From Planctomycetaceae bacterium (lineage in GTDB: Bacteria; Planctomycetota; UBA1135; GCA-002686595), in assembly GCA_016125265.1 (NCBI GenBank), contig WGMC01000015.1:161657-225656 (forward strand): a stretch of DNA of 64,000 nt. The letters are read 5' to 3'. Made by a program: the position numbers and the translations under genes. Of this stretch, positions 30,871-43,073 are shown in pieces. Within the stretch, counting starts at the first letter, position 1. Each line of letters starts with the position of its first letter. The notes below the pieces were generated by a model. That model did not search any database and was not told the origin of the DNA. It saw nothing but the letters and a program-made list of their open reading frames with translations.

Positions 30871-31995
30871 TCAGCTCCGGCGCCACAGTTCGTAGCGGGA
30901 GAAGTAGCCCACTCGGTCGTCGTGGGCGGCGCGCTCGGAGCGGGGGCCGTCGAGTTTCCAGTGGGAGAGCACAGCCGCGGGCGGGGGGCGGGCGACCAGG
31001 AACGAACGCAGGAAGCAGGACGCGCCGGGGCGGGCCGCGCGCGCCACGGCGGCCCAGATCGCGTCGTGGTGGTCGTCTTCGCACCAGTCGAGCACGTTGC
31101 TCAGGTTGAAGCGGTCGATGCTGCCCGGGTCCTGCGCCTCGAGGGCGTCGAGCAGGTCCGCGCAGAGCCACTCCGTCGTGTCCGGCCGCCGCGCGAGGTC
31201 GGCGCGGAACTCGCGCTCGAGGTAGGCCGGAATCGCTCCGCCTTCGCCGCCGCCGAGCCACAGCCTCTGCAAGAAGACGTTCGACGTCGGGTCGAGCTCG
31301 AGCGTGAGGTGCCGCAGCACGCGCAGGTAGTGGAGGTGGAAGCGCGGCTCGGCCATGCGCGGCCAGGCGGCGGCCGGGATGAACGCGTCCGAGATGGTCG
31401 TTTCGTTGAGGGCGGCGGCGAGGAAGTCCACCGTCGCGGGGCTCTCCAGCGCATCCCACGCGGCGCGCCGCGTCGCCGGATCGCCGTTCAGGATCAAGGC
31501 CTCGAGCGTCGCGCGTCCCACGGTCGCCGTCAGCCCGGCGCGCAGGGGTTCGAGGAACTCGGCCAGCTTGCCGCAGCCGAGGAGGCCGCGCTCGGCGACC
31601 CGCTGCGAAAGCGCCGGCCAGTGCTCCAGCTCCGGCGGCGAAAGGGCGGCGAGCAAGCCCCAACGCTGGGCCTCCGTCGCCGGCGCGATTCCGGCGAGGC
31701 GCAGGAGGTCGCCCTGGTCGAGATCGAGCATGGCAGCCCACTTCCACCGCGAGAGTGCGATCTGCGCAGGATCGATGTCGACCGCGACCACACGCGCCGC
31801 GCCCGCCCGCTGCAGGTGGAACACGTTGTCCCCCGCCGACGCGACACACAGCACGGCACGCTCCGCGCAGGGTGAGAGCGCGTCCACGATGGCGCGGTGG
31901 TCCTCCATCACCTCGGAGTAGGCGGGGATCGATTGGCTGGCCGGATTGGGATGGGCGAGGCCCGCGCGGGGCGAACCGTGGTTTTGGATGCTCAT
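30871..31995 (-). CDS. DUF3419 (BtaA-like) SAM aminocarboxypropyl transferase
   Basis: A 374-residue protein of the DUF3419/BtaA family. YSEVMEDHRAIVDAL leads into the SAM-binding segment VLCVASAGDNVFHL and AVDIDPAQIAL. Later come ILNGDPATRR, FNLSNVLDWCEDDHH and ARPGASCFLRSFL. BtaA moves the 3-amino-3-carboxypropyl group of SAM onto diacylglycerol, creating a homoserine ether that is itself an alpha-amino acid. It is the last gene of a tight operon (7 bp after the acylase). No BtaB N-methyltransferase is present, so betaine-lipid synthesis is not the obvious role; transfer onto another acceptor to build a non-standard amino acid is possible (inference). Confidence 0.75.
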   Translation of the reverse strand: MSIQNHGSPRAGLAHPNPASQSIPAYSEVMEDHRAIVDALSPCAERAVLCVASAGDNVFHLQRAGAARVVAVDIDPAQIALSRWKWAAMLDLDQGDLLRLAGIAPATEAQRWGLLAALSPPELEHWPALSQRVAERGLLGCGKLAEFLEPLRAGLTATVGRATLEALILNGDPATRRAAWDALESPATVDFLAAALNETTISDAFIPAAAWPRMAEPRFHLHYLRVLRHLTLELDPTSNVFLQRLWLGGGEGGAIPAYLEREFRADLARRPDTTEWLCADLLDALEAQDPGSIDRFNLSNVLDWCEDDHHDAIWAAVARAARPGASCFLRSFLVARPPPAAVLSHWKLDGPRSERAAHDDRVGYFSRYELWRRS

Positions 31996-32002
31996 GGGAG
32001 GT

Positions 32003-34114
32003 TCAGGGTGCAGCGACCCGGGCGGGTGGAATCCGATCGACGGCGACCGTTGCCCGCTCGATGTCGGTGGATGTGAGCAGCGCGTCGCGCAGTTCGCCGC
32101 GCGACGCCCGTTCGAGATCGGGCCCACGCGGTGTGCCGCCCGGTTGTGACGCGTTGCCGTGCGCCATGAGCACACGCGCGCGGAGCGGCGTCGTGAACTC
32201 GACGGCCGCGACGAATGTGTCGCCGCCAACCGCGGCCAACGTCCCGTCCTGCAGCGCCGCGTACTCGAACACACGCAGCACTCCGAGCGAGCGGTCGCCG
32301 CCGCTGCAAGGCAGATCGACGGGCCCCGCGCGCAGGCGGTGGACCGCGCCCCACTCGATGTCGAGGCGGCTGTGTTCCGCCGCGACCTTCTCCGCGGCGA
32401 CGTCGAGCGCCGCTCGAGCAAGGGAGAGGTCCGCGATGCCTTGGGGTGTCTCGAGGGGAGATGCCGGATCCCACGGCGTGCGGAAGGCACCGCCGCGCAC
32501 GCGCCACTCCCGCGCGAACTCCGCGAACAGAACCGCGCCGCGACTGTCGCGGTCCAGCCGACGATCCCACGCGGCGAGCACATCGAGCGCAGCGGCGGTG
32601 GGTTCCCCCACATCCGCGCGCAGCGCCAACAGGTCCGGGAGGACACGCTCCGCCAGTTCGACGCCGCTGTCGCTCCAACCGCGCTCCAGGTCCGCCAGCA
32701 CGAGCCGCGGCGGCGCAGCGAGGAGTGTCCGCAGGGAGCGCTGCGCCGCGAGGTGCAGGAACTGCGGAGCCACGTAAGGGGGGAACGCCGCCGGATCGAG
32801 CGGCGACGGCGCGGTGGCGCTCCAGGGCGGGTCGTTGGCGCTGTGCACCCAACCGGAAGCTGGGTCGAGGACACGCGGTAGATCGCGAAGGGGATGCACG
32901 TCGGTCCACAGGGTCTCGGCGCTCGTGCCGGGCACAACCTTGCCCCAATCCAGGTCTTGGCGCGCACGCGCCGGAGTCAGTCCGCCGAACTGGTGGAGGA
33001 CGTGGCCCTCGCGGTCGGCGTACACGACGGTGAATGTCGGCAACTGTTCGAGGGCGAGCGCGGCCTCGAACTCCGCGAGGTTTTTCGCGCGGCCCATCTC
33101 CCACCACTGCCGCAGGACGTGCGGACGATCCAGCCCGACGACCCGCAACGCTATGGCGCTGTTCCCTTCGCGTGCAATCACCGGCCCGTGGACCGTCGAT
33201 TCGACCGTGTGCCGCACCGCGTTCGTCCCCCACCAGCGGCCGCGCACACGGAGCTCGTGGACTTCCCGCGCGAGCGGCCACACAACGCCGTCGAAACGGT
33301 ACCCGCCGGGAACGAGTTCGATCGCGAAGTGATCGGCGCCGTCGTGGGTGTTGAGGGTGTGGGTCCAGCCGAGCTCGCCGTGGAAAGCGATCGCCAGCAC
33401 CGGCAGGCCCACGACCGCGGCACCGTACGCCGCGTACTCGGGGCACTCGAGGTGCGCCTCGTAGAACGTCCAAGGTTCCGTCCACGGCAGGTGCGGGTTC
33501 GCGAGCAACATGCCGACCCCGTTTTCGGAGCGCGACCCCGCGATCGCCCAGGCGTTGGAACCCCGGGCGCGCAGCGCCTGGGCCTCCCCCGTCGCGCGCG
33601 CGACGAGCCCGAAGTGCAGGAGGCGCTGTGCGTGGGCGAGCACGTCCTCGCCGCGGATCGGCAACACACGCCGCCAGCGCCCGTCGATGGTGCCCGGAAA
33701 TCGCGCCGCGTAGTCGTTGATGCCTCCGGCGAAGGCGTCGATCAGGTCGCGGAACTCCGGGTCCTGCTCCTCGTACCAACGGGCGGCGCGTTCTGGGATG
33801 CCCGCGGTCCACACGTCGCGGTCGGACGCGAGGAAATCCGCCCCGAAGTGTTCGGCCGCCCGTCCGCGCGCTTCTCCGAGGATGCGCAGCAGCATCTCGC
33901 CGTGGCTCTTGGCCTGTGCCCAGCCGAAGGCGCGCATCAATCCGCGTGCGTCCTGCGCCCGTACGTGGGGTACGCCGTGCACGTCCCAGTGGACTTCTGC
34001 GACGTGCGGGCCTGCGGCTTCCACGACCGCGTCGGCGTCGGGATCGCGCCGGCCCGCAGCAAACCACACCAACGCGACCAGACCCGCGAGGGCGAGGGCC
34101 AGTTTTCCCTTCAT
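32003..34114 (-). CDS. Penicillin-amidase-family N-acyl hydrolase
   Basis: A 703-residue Ntn-hydrolase precursor with an N-terminal export signal or anchor (LALALAGLVALVWFAAG). Residues 40-180 are the alpha-chain type region (VHWDVHGVPHVRA, RAFGWAQA). Autocleavage should occur before S186 in RGSNAWAI, the new N-terminal nucleophile. NPHLPW and AFHGELGWTHTLN follow as in the family, then HTVESTVHGPVI and HSANDPPW. Relatives include AHL acylases and PvdQ, which strip acyl groups from amines in the periplasm. Its ATG overlaps the stop of the di-iron oxidase gene (ATGA). With an acyltransferase at the head of the operon, an acylate-tailor-deacylate route is plausible (inference). Confidence 0.85.
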   Translation of the reverse strand: MKGKLALALAGLVALVWFAAGRRDPDADAVVEAAGPHVAEVHWDVHGVPHVRAQDARGLMRAFGWAQAKSHGEMLLRILGEARGRAAEHFGADFLASDRDVWTAGIPERAARWYEEQDPEFRDLIDAFAGGINDYAARFPGTIDGRWRRVLPIRGEDVLAHAQRLLHFGLVARATGEAQALRARGSNAWAIAGSRSENGVGMLLANPHLPWTEPWTFYEAHLECPEYAAYGAAVVGLPVLAIAFHGELGWTHTLNTHDGADHFAIELVPGGYRFDGVVWPLAREVHELRVRGRWWGTNAVRHTVESTVHGPVIAREGNSAIALRVVGLDRPHVLRQWWEMGRAKNLAEFEAALALEQLPTFTVVYADREGHVLHQFGGLTPARARQDLDWGKVVPGTSAETLWTDVHPLRDLPRVLDPASGWVHSANDPPWSATAPSPLDPAAFPPYVAPQFLHLAAQRSLRTLLAAPPRLVLADLERGWSDSGVELAERVLPDLLALRADVGEPTAAALDVLAAWDRRLDRDSRGAVLFAEFAREWRVRGGAFRTPWDPASPLETPQGIADLSLARAALDVAAEKVAAEHSRLDIEWGAVHRLRAGPVDLPCSGGDRSLGVLRVFEYAALQDGTLAAVGGDTFVAAVEFTTPLRARVLMAHGNASQPGGTPRGPDLERASRGELRDALLTSTDIERATVAVDRIPPARVAAP

Positions 34115-34824
34115 GCTCGCGCGCGCTCTTCGCGGCGCCGCTGGACGCCGTGCAGAATGCCGCCGGTCAGCGCGAGAGACGTTTCGAGGACGTGCAGCAT
34201 GCCGTCGCGTCGCTGGGGCGTGTCGCAGAACTCGGCCGCAATCCGCCGGACCTCGTCGAAGTGTTCCCGATCGATCGCCGAGTGGGCGGCGAAGAACGTC
34301 ATCTGGGCGCTGGTCAGGCCGAGCCCCTGCCGCATGGCGTCGGTGAGGTCCGCGATGTGGGAGTAACAGCTCTCCGCCCAGTAGCTGTATCCGAGCCGCG
34401 CGGTGGCGTCACACTCGCGCGCCACACGCTCGAGCCAGCCGACGAACGCCTCCGTTTCCGGGCAGGGTGCGCTGGCGCGCACGCTCGCGGGGTCCACGTC
34501 CAGGCACGCCAAATCGTGGAGCACCATGAGGTCGTGGCCCGCCTCCTCGTACGCGTGGCGCAGACAAAAGCGCAGCAGCGGCAGGCGTTCGGAATCCACG
34601 CGCATGGCAGCGAGCGCCTGGTTCTGCGCGTTGTGTTTGGTGTAGTGGAAGATCTGCGACATCAGATCGACGTACGTGTCGCGATCGAGGCCCCTGGTGC
34701 GCAGGTCATGCCAGAAGGGCTGCGTGTGGATCGCCGCCCAACCGGCGGCTGCGCGGCGGTCGCACTCGGCGAGGAATCCGGACGCGTCGAGCGCCGGCGC
34801 GGGAACGGTCGAGATGGTCTTCAC
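34111..34824 (-). CDS. Haem-oxygenase-like di-iron oxidase (HDO)
   Basis: A 237-residue, mainly helical TenA/PqqC-fold protein. The expected di-iron ligands are all visible: E94 and H97 in EEAGHD, E151 in YWAESC, and H181, D185 and H188 in AAHSAIDREHF. The His-x3-Asp-x2-His spacing matches characterised HDOs such as CADD. Family members perform oxygen-dependent reactions on fatty acids or amino acids: UndA makes alkenes, BesC cleaves chlorolysine, and the HDO domain of SznF N-hydroxylates a methylarginine. No cofactor other than iron is expected. It overlaps both neighbours by 4 bp. The substrate is unknown. Confidence 0.85.
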   Translation of the reverse strand: MKTISTVPAPALDASGFLAECDRRAAAGWAAIHTQPFWHDLRTRGLDRDTYVDLMSQIFHYTKHNAQNQALAAMRVDSERLPLLRFCLRHAYEEAGHDLMVLHDLACLDVDPASVRASAPCPETEAFVGWLERVARECDATARLGYSYWAESCYSHIADLTDAMRQGLGLTSAQMTFFAAHSAIDREHFDEVRRIAAEFCDTPQRRDGMLHVLETSLALTGGILHGVQRRREERARA

Positions 34825-35576
34825 AGCTTGGCCCCCACGCGCGGACGTTCGCGGCCGGTGAACTGGTGGATCGTGCCCGGCGGCCGCGCCTCGAGCGAAC
34901 GTGTGATCGCAACGTCCGACGATTCCATGCCGCCCTTGACCAGCCGGTAGCGCTGGCCCGCGCGGGCGGCGAGCTCCACCTCGAAGCCTGCGACTTCGAC
35001 TCCTCCGTAACTGACGTAGTGCGCGGCCAGGCGCGGCACCGCGAGTGCAAACCAGCCTCGGTACCGGGTGAGCTCGAGCAGCGCGCGGCAGCCCTCGCGC
35101 AACAGCGCCTCACTCACACCCGTGCGGCGCAGGTCCTCGCGCACGACGAGGCGCGAAATCTGCAGCGACGTGTCTCGCGCCGGCAGCGCGCCGGGCGGAA
35201 GCGAAGCGAGCTGCTCGGCTTCGAATCCCCGCGGCCCGCTGGGGCACCATCGGCAAGCGGCCACCACGTCGCTCCCAAGCCACGCGGCGAAGTGGAACGC
35301 GTCGTCGTCGTGCTCGTCCTCCGCGGGATGTCTGCCGCGGCGGTTGCCGAACAAGTAGTCCGAGCGCCCGCGCCAGGCCGTCTGGCGAAACCCGAAGATC
35401 GCCGCGCGGTCGGCGGCGCTGTCGCACAGCCTCAGATCGATCGGCCCGACGGCGCGGAGCGGGTCGACCGGAGGAGGGGCGACCACGCCGGGGCCTGGCC
35501 CGGGCTCCGGGACGGCGCGCTCGACGACTCCGGCGGACACGGGATCGGGGGAAGCGGTGACGGCGTTGTTTTCCAC
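34821..35576 (-). CDS. GNAT / N-acyl amino acid synthase-like acyltransferase
   Basis: A 251-residue GNAT-fold protein of the N-acyl amino acid synthase (FeeM)/autoinducer-synthase-like type. After a Pro-rich variable N-terminus come IFGFRQTAWRGRSDYLFG, FHFAAWLGSDVVAACRW (beta strands), LQISRLVVREDLRRTGVSEALL (acyl-CoA/ACP-binding region) and GWFALAVPRLAAHYVSYGG. These enzymes use acyl-CoA or acyl-ACP to acylate an amino group. The start at 35576 is a GTG in low-complexity sequence, so a later start is possible. It heads the four-gene operon and begins 56 nt after the 3' end of the UCA tRNA on the same strand. Confidence 0.75.
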   Translation of the reverse strand: MENNAVTASPDPVSAGVVERAVPEPGPGPGVVAPPPVDPLRAVGPIDLRLCDSAADRAAIFGFRQTAWRGRSDYLFGNRRGRHPAEDEHDDDAFHFAAWLGSDVVAACRWCPSGPRGFEAEQLASLPPGALPARDTSLQISRLVVREDLRRTGVSEALLREGCRALLELTRYRGWFALAVPRLAAHYVSYGGVEVAGFEVELAARAGQRYRLVKGGMESSDVAITRSLEARPPGTIHQFTGRERPRVGAKL

Positions 35577-35632
35577 GGCGCGCGGGGGATGTAGGAAACG
35601 CCCCCCCGGCGCATCGCACGGAGGGGTTTGGT

Positions 35633-36005
35633 TGGCGCACCCGACGGGACTCGAACCCGCGTCTCGCGGCTTTGAAGGCCGGCACTCTTGGATTCCAGGC
35701 GGAACAGGACGGCGCGAACGCGATCGCCGCGCGCCGCGGGGTGGACACCACCGCGATCTCCCACCGGGTCGGTGTCGGTAGGAGGCGCGGTGGAGGGCCC
35801 CGCGGATAACGGTCCGTCACGTGCGAAGTCCCGAGAAACTCCGCGCAGGCCGGTCAGCCTCCTCCCCACTCGAAAGGCGGAGGGGCAAGCCGCGAGTGAC
35901 TGCGCGGATGGACGAATGCGGACATTCACCCGGGATCCCGATCGTGACGGCACCGCGTCGCGTACGTCCCTCTGCCAGGGACCTTGACCATTGAGCTACG
36001 GGTGC
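35633..36005 (-). tRNA. Interrupted tRNA with UCA anticodon (UGA-reading candidate)
   Basis: Read on the minus strand from 36005. Acceptor GCACCCG (36005-35999) pairs perfectly with CGGGTGC (35643-35637); discriminator G73 at 35636 and an encoded CCA at 35635-35633. TA, then D-stem GCTC (35996-35993) pairs with GAGT (35687-35684). The anticodon loop is CTTCAAA (35677-35671), anticodon TCA at 35675-35673; its stem has 4 of 5 pairs. A 5-nt variable region, then a T-arm with TTCGAGT. Without an insertion in the D-loop this is a regular 77-nt type I tRNA. C35 and G73 suit arginine-type identity. The short variable arm and 7-bp acceptor are unlike tRNA-Sec. A functional UCA tRNA would read UGA, and a UGA-containing gene and ArgRS paralogue lie nearby. 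Whether the insertion is removed is unknown, so a pseudogene is the alternative. Confidence 0.72.
35691..35982 (-). other. 292-nt insertion or intron in the tRNA D-loop
   Basis: The tRNA is split after CAAG (35986-35983) and resumes at a second CAAG (35690-35687), leaving 292 nt between. It begins with a hairpin GTCCCTGGCAGAGGGAC and is very GC-rich. I could not place a group I core (P3/P7 or the terminal G rule) or group II ends (GUGYG), and see no terminal inverted repeats. The repeated CAAG could be a target-site duplication, or may only make the splice point ambiguous. Possible natures: an unfamiliar intron, a small insertion that kills the tRNA, or a functional D-loop extension. Bacterial tRNA introns normally lie in the anticodon loop, so a D-loop site is odd. 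Confidence 0.6.
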
Positions 36006-36126
36006 AGGAAAGGTTGGAAAAGTACGGGGGTAAAACCACCGCGGAACAGACGCTACGCTGGTGCGTGAAGGCGCTGCAAGGAACTCTCATTTGACGTTCA
36101 AGGCACCCACCCCCCCCCTACTGACC

Positions 36127-37839
36127 ATGTTGCCCCCTGCACGAGTCCCCACCACCCGCGCTCTGGGAGCATTCGACCCCATAGGTCACGTCGTCTCCCT
36201 GCTCGCCAGGGAGGGCCTTCCCGCTCCCCGCGGCGCTGCCCTGCGCAGGCTCGGCACCTCGGCGGCCGACGCTCGGATGTTCCTCGCGTCCGCGCCGGAA
36301 CCCGCAGCCCGCGAACTCCTCGTCGCGCGCCTCGAGGCTGACCCTGCCATCGAGAGTGTGCGCCTGCGGCGGGCGGAGCTGAGCGTGCGGTTCTCGGGGG
36401 CGCACGTGCAGGCGGTGCGCGACGGGCTCGGCGGTGGGCTCGCGGCGGTGCTCGGCCCCGGGCCGGACAGCGGACGGCGGTTCACGCTCAACTTCCTCAA
36501 TCCGAACGCCACCAAGCCGCTGCACATCGGGCACCTGCGCAATGTCGCGCTCGGCCAAGCCCTCGCGGCGCACTTCGAGGGTCGCGGCGCCGCGGTGCGG
36601 CGGCAAGTCTACGTGTGCGACATCGGCCGCAACGTGTGCGAAGCTCTCGCGGGCTGGGAGGTGTTCCACACCGGCGCCACGCCCGAGTCCACGGGACTCT
36701 TGCCCGATGTGTTCGTGGGGCACTGCTATGCGGACTACGCGCGCACACGGGCCTCGGACATGGGCAACGACGACCCCGCCGCGACCGAAAGTGAGGCCGT
36801 GGGGGACCGCGCCGACGAAATCGTGCGGGGTTGGCTGCGCGGCGATGCCGAGATCCGCGCGGCGTGGCGCGAGTTGCGCGGGTGGGCGCTCGAGGGCCAG
36901 TCGCGCACCCTCGAGCGCTTGGGTGTGCGTTTCGAGCGCCAGTGGTACGAGTCGGATTCCATCGAGCGCGCCGGACGACTCGTCGAACTCGGTCTTGGAC
37001 GCGGATGGCTCGTGCGCACGGACGAGGGTGGGGTCGTGTACCCCACGGGTCGCGCCGGGTACGGCCAATTGCCGCTCGTGCGCGCGGACGGTTTCCCAAC
37101 GGAGCACCTGCGGGTGATCGCTCTCTTCGCCATGGAACAGGACGAGCGCCCCGCGGCGGACCGCTGGATCGTCGTGTGCGGCGATGAGTGGAGCGCGGCG
37201 GGGAGCGCCGAACTCGAACTCGTCGCCCGACTCGCTCCGGGGCCGCTCGCACCGGTCGTCGACGTCGTCGCGCATGGGATGGTCACGGTGGGAGGATCGA
37301 AGATGAAATCCCGAGACGGTCGTGCACTGACCATCGACGCACTGCTCGACGGCCTGGAGAGCGACCCGCGCATCGCACTGCTGTGCGAGCGCTCGCAACC
37401 GCGTGTCGATCCCGCGGAAGCGGCGCAGATCCTCGCGCGCGGCTACTTCCTGTGCCGCAGACCTACTCGCGCGATCGAGTACGACTGGGATGGGCTCTTC
37501 GATGCGGCGCACAACCCGGGACTTGCGCTACTGCGCGCCTGGTGCCGCCCCCCGGATGCGGACGAACCGACCGCCGCCGCGGAGAAACACGCGGACACGG
37601 AACGAACCCTTGTGCTGCAGGCCCACCAGTTGCGCGGCCTCGTGTTCGCGGAGGGCGCCGAGTTCGCGCCCACGGAGGTCGCCAAGTTCACCAACGGCGT
37701 GGCCGCCTGGTACCTCGAACAACCTGCGCCCCCCGCGGTCCAGCGAACCGCACGCGCGCTGTTGGGTGTGTGCCTCGATGCACTCGGACTGCGTGCGAGC
37801 GGTCCCGCGCGCAGCCCTGCCCAGGCGACACACGCCTGA
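36127..37839 (+). CDS. Divergent arginyl-tRNA synthetase paralogue
   Basis: A 570-residue class I synthetase of ArgRS type and length. NPNATKPLHIGHLRN carries HIGH at residues 133-136; SKMKSRDG at 391-398 stands for KMSKS. An Add-like N-terminal domain (about 15-115) and a short DALR anticodon domain at the C-terminus are present. The region after HIGH reads YVCDIGRNV where ArgRSs usually have YVNDWG or similar, and DGFPTEHLRV replaces the usual DG..Y.TRD.A. Both border the amino-acid pocket, so specificity may be altered (inference). It starts 121 bp from the divergent UCA tRNA. A housekeeping argS is presumed elsewhere. An upstream GTG at 36061 is an alternative start. Its own stop is TGA. 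Confidence 0.85.
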   Translation: MLPPARVPTTRALGAFDPIGHVVSLLAREGLPAPRGAALRRLGTSAADARMFLASAPEPAARELLVARLEADPAIESVRLRRAELSVRFSGAHVQAVRDGLGGGLAAVLGPGPDSGRRFTLNFLNPNATKPLHIGHLRNVALGQALAAHFEGRGAAVRRQVYVCDIGRNVCEALAGWEVFHTGATPESTGLLPDVFVGHCYADYARTRASDMGNDDPAATESEAVGDRADEIVRGWLRGDAEIRAAWRELRGWALEGQSRTLERLGVRFERQWYESDSIERAGRLVELGLGRGWLVRTDEGGVVYPTGRAGYGQLPLVRADGFPTEHLRVIALFAMEQDERPAADRWIVVCGDEWSAAGSAELELVARLAPGPLAPVVDVVAHGMVTVGGSKMKSRDGRALTIDALLDGLESDPRIALLCERSQPRVDPAEAAQILARGYFLCRRPTRAIEYDWDGLFDAAHNPGLALLRAWCRPPDADEPTAAAEKHADTERTLVLQAHQLRGLVFAEGAEFAPTEVAKFTNGVAAWYLEQPAPPAVQRTARALLGVCLDALGLRASGPARSPAQATHA

Positions 37840-37851
37840 GTTCGGCAGCCT

Positions 37852-40098
37852 CTAGTACTGCAGGACAACTTCGGCGAAGTCGCCGGCGCGGACACCCACT
37901 CGGACCGCCTCGGCGTAACGTTGGCGCGGATCCCGAACGCGCACGACGTGCTCACCCGCGCCGATCCTTTCGAAGTAGGCATATCCGTCCGCGTCCGAGC
38001 GCGACGGGTACGCGAGACAACCGCACCAACGGTTCTGCGGCGGTTCGAGCACGACGTCCACATCGGCCAACGGTTGGCCGTCGGGCGACCGCACCAGCAC
38101 GGTCAGGGGCTCGCGCACCTGTGGATCTGCGCGCACCGCCATGCCACCCACCTCCACGCTGTCCTCCAATGCGACGAGCGCATGCTCGGCCGGGAGGAAC
38201 AGGCCTTTCGGATCGCTGATCGAGAGCACGAGCGCTTCGCCGCGCGGCGCCGTGAGATCGAATCGTCCGAGGACGTCGGTGAAGGTCATGGCCAAGGGGC
38301 GTGTGTCCTCGCTGGCGCCGACGGGTCGCAGCGCCGCGAATAGGCCGGCCACCGGTTGGTCCCGCGGATCCCTCGCATTGCCGACCACACGCGCCGTGGC
38401 CGCTGGGGGTTCGGAAACTTCGATCTCGAAGTCGAAGGGACCGCTCTCGTGTCCCGCGGCGACGGCGACGGGGGCGAGGTCGACACCCTGCGCGACGAGT
38501 TCGTACGTGCCGCCCGCCAGGCCGCGGATCGCAAAACGGCCCTCGTCGTCCGAGACGGCGCGGTGCGCGCGCCACCAGCGCTCGGGGCGGTAGTCATCGA
38601 GCGCGGATCCGGCGACGACGATCTCGCGCTGGGCGCGCAACTCGATTCCCGCTCGTGGTTTCCCGCTGGCGTCGCGCAACGATCCGAACAGCCCCGCCTG
38701 TTGCTCGAGCACGACATCGCCCAGTTCGACGCGCTCCTCGTCGCCCAAGGGATCGGGCCAGAGAAAGAGCGGGGCGCGCCCCTCTGCGACGAGCACCAGG
38801 ACCAATTGTCGACCAACACCTAACCCTTCGATCTCGAAGAAGCCGTCTGCGAGCGTGCGCGCCGCGAGGCGCCAGCGTTCGGGATGAGGCGAAACCCTAG
38901 CGAGCGCTTGGGCGAGTCCCGCATGGCCGCGGGGGATCAATGGGATGTGTGTCGTACGCACGTCGACGTTGCCGAGCGGGGCATGGAACTCGTCCACCGC
39001 GCGACCGGCGACGACACGACCGCGCTCACCCAGTTGGATCTCGAGCACCGCTGCACGCAACGCGTCTTCGCCGTCTGGCATCCGCACCGTGCGAGGAACC
39101 TCGGCGAGTCCCCGTGCGGACGCGAACACGGAGACGGTTTCGCGTGCGGCAAAGCGGCGGTCGGTTGCGAAGCGGCCCTGTTCGTCCGGCTCGATTTCGA
39201 GAATCTCCGATCGTCCGAGGGAGAACGCCTCCACCCGGACTCGCGCGTCGCGCAGCGGTCCCGCACCAGGCGCGGGGCTCACCGTGCCGAGCAGGGCGAA
39301 TCCGGCGGAAAGCGACACCTCGACGCGGCGCTCGCGTCCCGGCACACCTGTTTCGAGGGCCGCTACCCGCGTGTGCGCACGTGTGTACTCGGGATGGCGC
39401 ACGACGAGGTAGAACTCGGCCGAGCCGACCGGAGCGAGGCGCGCTTCGCCACGGGCATCCGTTTCCATCGCCGCGACGGCGGTGCCCTCCGGCGAAGCAA
39501 AGTCCGGATGGAGCGCAACGTGCGCCCGCGCAATGGGTCCACCCGCCGCGTCCACCACCCTCACGACAACAGCGGAGGCGCGTTCGAGGCGCACTTCGCA
39601 GCGATCTCCGGCCCGCAACCCACTCCTGTGGTGCACCGCGTGGCCGTCCCCATGCACGACGAGCCGCCACGTGCCCGTACCGGCGGTCAGAAAGAAGTCA
39701 CCCGCAGCGTCACTCGCCGTCGCCGCACGCGGCGATGCATCGTCCGTCAAGTCCGCCGCGGCATGGATCCACGCTCCGGAATCGGCGTCGCGCCAAAGTT
39801 CGACCCGTGCGCTGGCAAACGGTTTGCCGTCACCACCGAACACCGTCCCCCCGATCCCCTCTGGCGCGGGCGCCGCTTCCCCGCGCGTTGGTGCCGCGCC
39901 GATGGCCTCGGACCTGCGCCCAGCCGTTGCCTGCGCGTTCGAGACGCTCCGCTCCGACGCGCGCCCGGCGTGCGGCGCGGAGCCCGCCGCGCGTACCGCC
40001 GTGGACCGCTGGTCCGCGGTGCTGCGGGTCCAGAGCAGGCCGCCGACGAGCAGCAAAGCGACGGTGGCGAGTACGGCGAGCACGCGGCGGTGGTTCAT
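37852..40098 (-). CDS. Exported protein with carboxypeptidase-regulatory-like repeats
   Basis: A 748-residue protein anchored by one N-terminal transmembrane segment (VLAVLATVALLLVGGLLW) and built of repeated beta-sandwich domains of the carboxypeptidase regulatory-like type. Recurrent phrases are GTVFGGDGKPFASARVELW, VVDAAGGPIARAHVAL, SLRDASGKPRAGIEL, NARDPRDQPVAGLFA and VRSPDGQPLADVDVVL, each followed by D.EGRF.I..L..G.Y. Such proteins are common on planctomycete surfaces. A related protein lies at 43063-45591. It separates the synthetase gene from the UGA-containing gene; a role in the same system is not shown. Stop is TAG. Confidence 0.75.
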   Translation of the reverse strand: MNHRRVLAVLATVALLLVGGLLWTRSTADQRSTAVRAAGSAPHAGRASERSVSNAQATAGRRSEAIGAAPTRGEAAPAPEGIGGTVFGGDGKPFASARVELWRDADSGAWIHAAADLTDDASPRAATASDAAGDFFLTAGTGTWRLVVHGDGHAVHHRSGLRAGDRCEVRLERASAVVVRVVDAAGGPIARAHVALHPDFASPEGTAVAAMETDARGEARLAPVGSAEFYLVVRHPEYTRAHTRVAALETGVPGRERRVEVSLSAGFALLGTVSPAPGAGPLRDARVRVEAFSLGRSEILEIEPDEQGRFATDRRFAARETVSVFASARGLAEVPRTVRMPDGEDALRAAVLEIQLGERGRVVAGRAVDEFHAPLGNVDVRTTHIPLIPRGHAGLAQALARVSPHPERWRLAARTLADGFFEIEGLGVGRQLVLVLVAEGRAPLFLWPDPLGDEERVELGDVVLEQQAGLFGSLRDASGKPRAGIELRAQREIVVAGSALDDYRPERWWRAHRAVSDDEGRFAIRGLAGGTYELVAQGVDLAPVAVAAGHESGPFDFEIEVSEPPAATARVVGNARDPRDQPVAGLFAALRPVGASEDTRPLAMTFTDVLGRFDLTAPRGEALVLSISDPKGLFLPAEHALVALEDSVEVGGMAVRADPQVREPLTVLVRSPDGQPLADVDVVLEPPQNRWCGCLAYPSRSDADGYAYFERIGAGEHVVRVRDPRQRYAEAVRVGVRAGDFAEVVLQY

Positions 40099-40180
40099 GG
40101 CTTCAAAACGCTTGGAGGGACAGAAAAGCGGCGCCCGACCGACGTTTGTGTGTCGCCCGGGCGCCCTTGGGACCGCTCGA

Positions 40181-40207
40181 CCGCGGTGAGCACCGACCTC
40201 ACCGCGG
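40181..40207 (-). terminator. Perfect 10-bp hairpin downstream of the UGA-containing gene
   Basis: CCGCGGTGAG at 40181-40190 and CTCACCGCGG at 40198-40207 form a perfect 10-bp stem with a 7-nt loop, 107 nt after the TAG stop of the small gene on the minus strand. There is no U-run. It may end that transcript. Because that gene has in-frame UGA codons, a recoding element in the 3' region cannot be excluded, though bacterial SECIS elements normally sit directly after the UGA. Confidence 0.45.
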
Positions 40208-40313
40208 AAGCGCTCCGGGGCGTGCGAGAGCGGAAGTGCCGTCCACCGCAGCGCCCGCGAACGGGCACCGGGCCGACGTGGCTTCCCCAGCTCCTATCCC
40301 CGCGAGCGGGTCT

Positions 40314-40589
40314 CTACTTGCACTTGACTTCGACCCAGGTGGGGATTTCGCAGATCGGCAGTCATGTGGGCTCGAGGCAACCCTCGAAAGGGTCGACCTT
40401 GTCGCCTTCGTAGACGGGCTTGAGCACCCACTCGCGGTTCTCGATTCATGTCGGAACCAGAACGAGCTTGTAGCAGGGCTTGGTGTCGCCCAGCTGCAGT
40501 GCCCCCGCCATCGGAACCGCAGCGAGGCCGAGCGCAAGCGCGAACGGAACCCCGAGCAGTCCCGCTTTCTTCAGCGCGGACTTCGTCAT
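40314..40589 (-). CDS. Small secreted Cys-containing protein with two in-frame UGA codons
   Basis: A 91-codon frame from ATG 40589 to TAG at 40314-40316, interrupted only by TGA at codon 48 (40448-40446) and codon 76 (40364-40362). GGAG lies 6 nt before the ATG. Residues 1-30 are a signal peptide (MTKSALKKAGLLGV, hydrophobic core, cleavage after AGA). The mature part has cysteines at 39, 71, 80 and 90. Both TGAs follow Pro-Thr (ACA-TGA) and precede Ile or Leu; a third Pro-Thr is followed by Trp (TGG). Third codon positions stay GC-rich through both TGAs, as expected for real coding sequence. Simple translation would stop at 47 residues. The likely reading is UGA decoding by the nearby UCA tRNA (inference); double nonsense mutation is the alternative. 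It lies between nfuA and the 748-residue gene, all on one strand. Confidence 0.7.
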
Positions 40590-41591: not shown

Positions 41592-43073
41592 CTAGCGGGC
41601 GAGGTAGTGAACCTTGCCCTCCTCGAAGAGGAGCCGCAGCTTGCCAGGAGGTTCGTTGTTCGCCATCGAACGCCATTCGTCGAGCAGAGTCGTGAGCATG
41701 GTCGTGCGCGCGCCGCACGCGAAGGACGCGATCAGCTTCGCCAGTTCCGGCAATCCGGCTCGCTGCGCCGCGTCTCCCTCGGGAGTCCAGTACTTGTCGC
41801 AGAGGGGCGCAAGCACACATCGGGGACAGTTCGGCCATCCCGCCGCACCCGTGTTGGGCAGGGTTTGTGCGTCCGAGCGTTCGATGGGTCCGTCGTCTAG
41901 GGTCGGCAAGAGCTCCTCGAGGTGCGCAGCCAAACCCAAGTGGCGGTGGGCACCGGACCGGTACAGCTTGCCGTCCACATCGAGCCACAGACGCGAGTGA
42001 AGTTTGTCCCAGTGAACGAGGCCCCACCCGGCATGGACGGCGAACAGGAGCGTCTGCCTCCACGGTTCGTGCCGATGCAGCAACTCGACCTCCTGGCGGG
42101 TCAGTTCCGCAAGAGTGTCCAGCGCCGTCCGCAGCATCGGCTGGTCGACGATCGACTCCACGGGGCGCCCGTGCCACCTGGGCAACAGCAGCGGCGCGAT
42201 TTCGATCCCGTATCGATCGTTGCTCGCATTCCAGGCGCGTGCCCGGTCGGGGACACCCTCCGATAGCGTCGTGAGCATCCGGACGGTGACGCCGAAGCCG
42301 CCATCGGTCAGTTCCTCCACACGAGCGCGCGCGTGCGCACGAGCCTCCGGTTCCCGGTCGATGGGCGAGATCTCGGAGCGATCTTCGTGGATGACCCGCG
42401 CGTAGGGGTTGGTGTCCAACATCGCGGCCAGATCGACACCACGTTGGCGGAAGGGGCTGACGATTTCGATTCCAAGACTCTCCTTGTCGAGCCCCAGTTT
42501 CTTGAAGCCGTTGCCCACCGCTTCGAGAACACGCGACAGATCGTCGAGCTCGGCGAGCGGCTCCTCGCCCACCAACCGCACCACGACCCGCTTCAAGTCA
42601 CCGATGCGTTGGGGCAAGGAATCCACGATCGCTTCCGTTCGGGCTAGCTTTTCCTGGCACACCCGACCGAGTTCGATCTCCAACGTGAAGGTCCCGAGCG
42701 CGGCGCCCCGACCTCGCTCCATGCCCTCCTGCTCGGGGGGCTCGTAGGACAACAACACTCCCATGCGCTCTAGGCGCGCGAGGACCACCTTCTCTCGCGG
42801 ATCAAAGGCCAGCTGGCCGGGTCGATCGACCGTGCCGGACAACTTCGCGAGGGCGGAGTGGAAGGCCTCCCGGTCCTCGAAAATCTGGTGCGCCGGCGGA
42901 TAGCTCCACGCGTTGACCGCCAGAACCTGTCGGCCGTCATCGTCGAAGACGGCTCTTGGATTGAGATACACGCGGGTCGTGCCGTCGCGCTCGACCAATA
43001 TCGAGCGCTGCTGGTTTGCCAGAACCGCGGTGGCTTCGGTCGTGTCTCGGGTATCGCCTTCATCACCATTCAT
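41592..43073 (-). CDS. Degenerate radical-SAM-like protein with SPASM-type cysteines
   Basis: A 493-residue protein. The layout recalls a peptide-modifying radical SAM/SPASM enzyme: an N-terminal about 115-residue region, a barrel-like middle with VVVRLVGEEPLAELDDL (residues 163-179, echoing the GGEPLL motif) and C-terminal NCPRCVLAPLCDKYW (C416, C419, C425), as in SPASM domains. The CxxxCxxC cluster motif is absent: only C139 in LEIELGRVCQEKLART is left where three cysteines are expected. So it may be a non-catalytic partner or a pseudo-enzyme. The ATG at 43073 overlaps the end of the upstream gene by 11 bp. Stop is TAG. Confidence 0.55.
   Translation of the reverse strand: MNGDEGDTRDTTEATAVLANQQRSILVERDGTTRVYLNPRAVFDDDGRQVLAVNAWSYPPAHQIFEDREAFHSALAKLSGTVDRPGQLAFDPREKVVLARLERMGVLLSYEPPEQEGMERGRGAALGTFTLEIELGRVCQEKLARTEAIVDSLPQRIGDLKRVVVRLVGEEPLAELDDLSRVLEAVGNGFKKLGLDKESLGIEIVSPFRQRGVDLAAMLDTNPYARVIHEDRSEISPIDREPEARAHARARVEELTDGGFGVTVRMLTTLSEGVPDRARAWNASNDRYGIEIAPLLLPRWHGRPVESIVDQPMLRTALDTLAELTRQEVELLHRHEPWRQTLLFAVHAGWGLVHWDKLHSRLWLDVDGKLYRSGAHRHLGLAAHLEELLPTLDDGPIERSDAQTLPNTGAAGWPNCPRCVLAPLCDKYWTPEGDAAQRAGLPELAKLIASFACGARTTMLTTLLDEWRSMANNEPPGKLRLLFEEGKVHYLAR

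Follow-up and report, generated by a model that had tools for sequence, protein, structure and literature searches.

The question raised by the locus described here is whether four neighbouring elements in the genome of a Planctomycetaceae bacterium (assembly of 5.1 Mb, completeness 92%) serve together to place an additional amino acid at UGA codons. The elements lie in a 64-kb stretch of DNA, hereafter the window (GC content 63-72%), and consist of a tRNA gene with anticodon UCA, a paralogue of arginyl-tRNA synthetase (ArgRS), a four-gene operon and a small-protein gene interrupted by two in-frame UGAs; the original prediction had joined them into a cassette resembling that for pyrrolysine (pyl). 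We consider it probable, from the comparison of sequences, that they represent a codon-flexible natural expansion of the genetic code which resembles pyl in action without being related: a non-standard amino acid would be attached to an intron-like tRNA by an ArgRS-like enzyme. By function the set would be a code-expansion cassette, with a dedicated synthetase, its tRNA and a target that holds the recoded codon occurring together in 5/5 planctomycetes and in 5/5 alphaproteobacteria. The wider claim, that mobile ArgRS-derived cassettes of at least two phyla, with branch-specific amino-acid pathways and a new kind of tRNA intron, form a third, independent and codon-flexible code expansion, stands in our judgment evenly between true and false.

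The arrangement in the window is the one first proposed. The ArgRS-like open reading frame (ORF), on the forward strand, is separated by 121 bp from the nearer end of the tRNA (36005), which lies on the opposite strand; the operon starts at 35576 on the reverse strand, 56 nt past the other tRNA end at 35633 and in the same orientation as the tRNA; and the small-protein gene has UGA at codons 48 and 76 before a TAG stop. When the paralogue was searched for in 154 genomes of the class (E-value 1e-30), it was found in five, and a split tRNA gene with anticodon UCA lies divergently beside it in all five. With the small protein as query, exactly these five carriers were retrieved, each with two or three in-frame TGAs, and the other 149 genomes gave no match; two alignment columns are UGA in 5/5 genes, all of which stop at TAG. 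The genes for a FeeM-like protein and for a protein with a carboxypeptidase-regulatory-like (CarboxypepD) domain are present in 5/5 loci, and those for a haem-oxygenase-like di-iron oxidase (HDO), an acylase and a DUF3419 protein in the four loci long enough to hold them, since the contig of the fifth (L051) ends inside the operon. The expected co-occurrence of paralogue, UCA tRNA, UGA protein and operon is thus borne out in the class of the window. The four outer neighbours (UvrD, a hydrolase, NfuA and the ORF at 41592) had no match within the 8.7-19.9 kb retrieved around the other four loci, which marks the limits of the cluster. The joint occurrence of the split UCA tRNA, the paralogue and the two UGA columns is far above chance. 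In one of the carriers, a genome of the same family (G016), the paralogue is identical to a protein named for Engelhardtia mirabilis, a planctomycete.

The tRNA gene escapes ordinary detection. ARAGORN found no tRNA in the window, and the Rfam tRNA model matched the 3' half only, with 28.9 bits against a cut-off of 29. Without an insert of 296 nt in the D-loop, the gene reads as a complete 77-nt cloverleaf of ordinary 7/5 proportions with an encoded CCA and the anticodon UCA. The UCA cloverleaf originally described is therefore present at its place, but it is not contiguous, and the insert had gone unmentioned. A copy of CAAG stands at each junction, leaving the exact junction ambiguous by 4 nt. 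In the five planctomycetes the inserts measure 296, 282, 301, 291 and 290 nt and occupy the same D-loop site. Across 28 pairs (the cloverleaf and one insert hairpin), 97.9% of the cells of the five sequences pair, and two-sided changes are seen in four pairs, three of the anticodon stem and one of the insert hairpin, a result matched by 2 of 500 shuffles in an alignment of only five sequences. By eye, the planctomycete inserts share the CACTCG/CGAGTG hairpin and CACCGAC, and those of the alphaproteobacteria described below share CGACTGGGGAATGA and CACCCCGAC. A group I or group II intron was rejected for the insert, as Rfam gave no match in five of the ten split tRNAs. A simple score places the joined tRNA nearest to the host tRNA-Asp; a reading of UGA as tryptophan was rejected because the host tRNA-Trp falls outside the eight nearest tRNAs, and the identity of a selenocysteine tRNA (tRNA-Sec) because the hosts carry a separate, true tRNA-Sec. 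The arginine identity elements given in PMC8975779 are A20, C35 and U/G36. In our numbering the planctomycete split tRNA has U20 and A36, and hence lacks A20, and the anticodon of the alphaproteobacterial split tRNA lacks C35.

The synthetase is an ArgRS by descent with an altered pocket. The structure predicted for the paralogue (mean pLDDT, the predicted local distance difference test, 89.0) has an ArgRS in each of its 20 best PDB matches, with yeast ArgRS 1bs2 at the top in Foldseek, and the stretch DGTTLYLTRD of the yeast arginine pocket aligns to DGFPTEHxRV in the window paralogue. The Tyr and the Asp of this pocket (DGxxxYxxxD), the residues that hold the guanidinium group, occur in none of the 30 aligned paralogues: Tyr is replaced by Glu in 25, by His in three and by Gln in two, and Asp by Val in 22, by Leu in three, by Ala in two, by Thr in two and by Gln in one. 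The five alphaproteobacterial loci have Glu and Ala, and L051 has Glu and Val. The host encodes its own canonical ArgRS, to which the window paralogue is 26% identical and in which both Tyr and Asp are kept. Pfam assigns only PF00750 to the window paralogue and to that of Stappia, the Arg_tRNA_synt_N and DALR domains being below detection in both, and all three domains to the host ArgRS. In a tree of 53 sequences, one edge parts all 33 paralogues from all 20 canonical enzymes; the ten alphaproteobacterial paralogues form a clade (support 1.0), and the planctomycete-labelled and actinobacterial ones do not. Some of the canonical sequences came from the lower-ranking loci of the GTDB scan described below and were picked by the Tyr/Asp motif, so these are no independent test of that motif. 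Together, the loss of the pocket Tyr and Asp and the absence of tRNA identity elements suggest that the substrate is probably not arginine and that the paralogue and the split tRNA probably form an orthogonal pair; the altered pocket would be an indirect sign of charging with a non-standard amino acid. The earlier description of the pair as arginine-type is accordingly doubtful, with a tRNA nearest to tRNA-Asp and devoid of A20 and a synthetase devoid of both pocket residues.

The strongest indication that the tRNA decodes the linked peptide comes from a second branch of carriers. A profile scan of GTDB genomes found 496 relatives, of which 80 were kept as loci, and placed first a paralogue in Stappia sp. 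MMSF_3263 (locus L054, 37% identity; the other 79 loci, 23-34%); this was the only one of the 80 examined as a candidate paralogue. In the family of Stappia the paralogue was found in 5 of 87 genomes, two of which match proteins named for Stappia stellulata and Stappia sp. ES.058 (in a comparison that omitted the first five and the last five residues). A search of 397 genomes of the order, with at most three candidates scored per genome, returned only the Stappia genome itself; the other four carriers may lie outside that set. Beside the MMSF_3263 paralogue there is a tRNA whose D-loop is split by 110 nt, with a planctomycete-like T-arm and 3' end and with the anticodon UGG. All five carriers have the split UGG tRNA, and downstream of it in each is a peptide gene of about 110 amino acids, in which CCA accounts for 15 of 17 proline codons in MMSF_3263 and for 14 of 15-16 in the other four. 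In eight nearby ORFs of each locus, CCA makes up 9 of 237 proline codons in MMSF_3263 and 0.6-2.3% in the others; the excess in the MMSF_3263 peptide has a binomial probability of 6e-20. The anticodon and the over-used codon have thus shifted together, UCA going with UGA and UGG with CCA. Homologous loci without a UCA tRNA, which had been named as a finding that would speak against the cassette, do exist in these five alphaproteobacteria, but their UGG tRNA and CCA-rich peptide support the decoding link. Over the tRNA with its insert, MMSF_3263 and the other carriers share 97% identity, against 75-76% for the DNA upstream and 38-52% for that downstream, a difference which indicates that the insert is under selection. 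The other genes of the alphaproteobacterial cluster (a methyltransferase, a saccharopine-dehydrogenase-like protein, a HAD hydrolase and a pyridoxal phosphate (PLP) enzyme) are unlike the planctomycete operon. The PLP enzyme (L054:15601-17175) matched aspartate transaminase best, and GntC and VioD as well, all far below cut-off. GntC and VioD are cyclic-arginine enzymes, and an arginine-derived amino acid in this branch is a tempting guess.

In the planctomycetes the proposed target is the small UGA protein. Identity at codon positions 1, 2 and 3 is 0.66, 0.67 and 0.43 between the UGAs and 0.72, 0.83 and 0.50 past the second, a pattern which, as read from the alignment, indicates that the read-through part is under constraint at the protein level. 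In a crude sample of 29 window ORFs, TAG, the stop of all five small genes, ends only five, against 23 for TGA. Directly before six of the ten shared UGAs stands ACA, a codon that makes up 41 of 617 threonine codons in this sample. All five homologues found, the only ones available, have UGA at both columns, and none has Cys there. A control comparison of read-through ORFs was uninformative, since antisense frames rich in GC dominated it, and the structure predicted for the protein is of poor quality (pLDDT 53). A third in-frame UGA, at codon 32, is shared by two genomes that belong to one genus, in the context Gly-Gly-UGA-Gly-Pro-Cys (L050, gene 13038-12778; L135, 6685-6951).

Table 1. Features of the cassette region; positions are those of the 64-kb window.
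Feature	Position	Strand	Remarks
Study region	30871-40589	both	ORFs, protein families, split tRNA
DUF3419 protein, 374 aa	30871..31995	-	predicted S-adenosylmethionine (SAM) aminocarboxypropyl transferase
Penicillin-amidase family acylase, 703 aa	32003..34114	-	PvdQ-like, under the NCBIfam PvdQ cut-off; N-terminus signal-like (by eye)
HDO, 237 aa	34111..34824	-	nearest solved structure 3dde
FeeM-like N-acyltransferase, 251 aa	34821..35576	-	Pfam 18.6 of 27 bits, below cut-off; Engelhardtia homologue 29.7, above
Split tRNA gene, 373 nt	35633..36005	-	5' part 36005-35984; 3' part 35687-35633 with encoded CCA
Anticodon UCA	35673..35675	-	7-nt loop CUUCAAA; invariant in 5/5
D-loop insert, 296 nt, intron-like	35688..35983	-	hairpin arms TCACTCG 35899-35893 and CGAGTGG 35872-35866; CACCGAC motif
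ArgRS paralogue, 570 aa	36127..37839	+	HIGH and KMSKS-type motifs kept; Glu 326 at the place of the pocket Tyr, Val 330 at that of the pocket Asp
CarboxypepD domain protein, 748 aa	37852..40098	-	conserved with the cluster
Small protein, 91 aa, likely secreted	40314..40589	-	two in-frame UGAs, TAG stop
In-frame UGA, codon 76 of small protein	40362..40364	-	context CCC ACA UGA
In-frame UGA, codon 48 of small protein	40446..40448	-	context CCG ACA UGA

In the mechanism that we propose, the tRNA would be matured by removal of the D-loop insert and then charged by the paralogue, and the ribosome would use the charged tRNA, in planctomycetes to read the UGAs of the small protein and in alphaproteobacteria to read CCA, a sense codon, in the linked peptide. 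The amino acid itself may come from the operon, whose genes fit a scheme of protection, oxidation, extension and deprotection: acylation by the FeeM-like enzyme would add a protecting group, HDO would oxidize the product, the DUF3419 protein (whose activity is predicted from its kinship to BtaA) would transfer an aminocarboxypropyl group, and the acylase would deprotect. This source of the amino acid is the weakest link, the alphaproteobacterial branch having other enzymes. The original prediction that the operon shapes an amino acid keeps its conjectural standing, and the difficulty is the signal-like start of the acylase, as an exported enzyme fits poorly with deprotection in the cytosol before charging.

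The alternative that survives best keeps the decoding as proposed and gives the operon another product (for instance a signal or lipid of the N-acyl amino acid type), with the amino acid supplied from elsewhere; we regard it as a possible, if clearly less favoured, explanation. FeeM-like and PvdQ-like enzymes are reminiscent of acyl-amino-acid and signal metabolism, the acylase looks exported, and the gene set of the alphaproteobacterial clusters is a different one. Against this, the operon lies directly past the tRNA and is kept in 4/4 loci of sufficient length, whereas the four genes further out are not conserved.

It is unlikely, in our view, that the substrate of the paralogue is one of the standard amino acids (arginine or some other), with the tRNA acting as a local UGA suppressor beside an unrelated operon. 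The descent of the enzyme from ArgRS and its HIGH and KMSKS motifs agree with such a role, but the pocket Tyr and Asp are both at 0/30, the planctomycete tRNA is without the major bacterial ArgRS identity element A20 (in our numbering) and the alphaproteobacterial one without C35, and the operon is conserved with the cluster.

The main rival for the UGA itself is selenocysteine, inserted by the SelB and tRNA-Sec of the host, with the paralogue and the split tRNA serving some other end; we think this decidedly improbable. SelB above cut-off and a strong tRNA-Sec are found in all five hosts, so that UGA could be selenocysteine there; some hairpins past the UGAs sit at the position of a bacterial selenocysteine insertion sequence (SECIS), and the third UGA of two genomes lies within a U-G-P-C motif. 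However, tRNA-Sec is widespread in the class (136 of 154 genomes), while the UGA protein was found only in the five cassette carriers; 4 of the 12 best hairpins had both of the SECIS properties looked for, and no structure was common to all. Nor would selenocysteine account for a dedicated UCA tRNA or for the parallel between UGG and CCA.

Still less credible is a role off the ribosome, in which the charged tRNA would feed a biosynthetic transferase (PEARL or another aminoacyl-tRNA-dependent pathway): ligases that use aminoacyl-tRNA do exist in peptide pathways, as described for PEARL, and GNAT-type and other enzymes adjoin the tRNA, but within either branch the anticodon does not vary, and in both it corresponds to the codon that stands out in the linked peptide. 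That the tRNA gene is a remnant disrupted by an inserted element is hardly believable, for although the insert is bordered by short direct repeats (some 3-6 nt, by eye) and ARAGORN overlooks the gene, the same insert site recurs in ten genomes of two phyla with an intact cloverleaf and covariation, and tRNA and insert are 97% conserved in the alphaproteobacteria.

Besides the selenocysteine machinery of the hosts, several observations weigh against code expansion as we describe it. UGA is the main stop codon in the window, ending 23 of 29 ORFs in a crude sample (TAG ends five and TAA one), and the FeeM, HDO, acylase, ArgRS and DUF3419 ORFs all terminate in it; a search for recoding elements gave none. 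Stappia retains an ordinary tRNA-Pro(UGG), so CCA would be ambiguous there. The comparison of the insert with the Rfam intron families gave no intron match at E-values up to 10 in five of the ten split tRNAs, and the edge between paralogues and canonical enzymes has a support of only 0.61. The acylase has its signal-like N-terminus (by eye). Finally, the paralogues of Conexibacter and Solirubrobacterales are known as proteins alone.

These belong to a large, apparently actinobacterial group (proteins from P0030 on, those with a name being Conexibacter; Solirubrobacterales P0155, P0159 and P0161), and five actinobacterial members of alignment A1 have an altered KMSKS motif. Further paralogues, likewise known as proteins alone, occur in Oricola, Alkalicaulis, Salinarimonas and Allosphingosinicella. 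Among 101 genomes, one of five matches (G088) was dropped as a canonical ArgRS by motif, as were five of the eight matches in 392 genomes of the phylum, the remaining three being already known. Carriage by plasmids or phages was considered and rejected. Against plasmids the window paralogue matched four records at 27-28% identity, two of them annotated argS; the Stappia paralogue had no match in plasmids or phages, nor the Conexibacter paralogue in plasmids, and two scans of viral contigs gave no relatives of the paralogue. At C16:12542-12866 of genome G000, diverged tRNAs (two of Asn-GUU, one of Gln-UUG and one of Leu-UAA) form a compact array with a phage-like look.

Set beside known systems, the cassette resembles pyl in having a dedicated synthetase with its own tRNA for a stop codon, biosynthetic genes next to these and a target protein that is recoded. 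The likeness first drawn thus stands for function but not for membership: the enzyme is a class I, ArgRS-like protein (PF00750) and PylRS is of class II; the codons are UGA or CCA, with anticodons UCA or UGG, instead of UAG read by the CUA of tRNA-Pyl; the tRNA is split in its D-loop; and the neighbours are FeeM-like, HDO, acylase and DUF3419 genes, not pylBCD. The selenocysteine system (SelA, SelB and tRNA-Sec) also reads UGA as an amino acid with a UCA tRNA, and the hosts of the cassette possess SelB and tRNA-Sec too; the split tRNA differs in its short variable loop, its 7-bp acceptor stem and its linked enzyme, and no consistent SECIS was seen. With canonical ArgRS the paralogue has the fold and the HIGH and KMSKS motifs in common; it differs in the replaced pocket Tyr and Asp, and Pfam does not detect the N-terminal and DALR domains in it. 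In bacteria and plastids, tRNA genes are likewise interrupted by non-coding inserts in the form of group I and group II introns, and plastid trnG carries a group II intron in its D-arm; the present inserts, of 110-301 nt and without an Rfam intron match, differ in their bacterial D-loop site. To our knowledge, selenocysteine and pyrrolysine are the only established natural additions to the 20 amino acids. Allo-tRNA and selC* tRNA-Cys (PMC7609411) are also unusual tRNAs for stop or sense codons, but the joined tRNA has ordinary 7/5 proportions and is not of their Ser/Cys type. Among the matches listed from 5.39 million open-access papers, to which the search was directed, none describes a system of this kind, most subscription papers and preprints being outside its scope.

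If the proposed decoding is correct, the cassette would be a third natural addition to the amino acids of the code, made by another class of synthetase and with a codon that can change, even to a sense codon. It would offer synthetic biology an orthogonal synthetase/tRNA pair; the amino acid and the pathway to it would be new as well, and so, probably, would the way in which the tRNA is processed. The proposal can be tested directly in named carriers, Engelhardtia mirabilis and Stappia stellulata. For the bacteria that carry such cassettes, it would mean that additions to the genetic code emerge again and again and move together with gene clusters for peptides.

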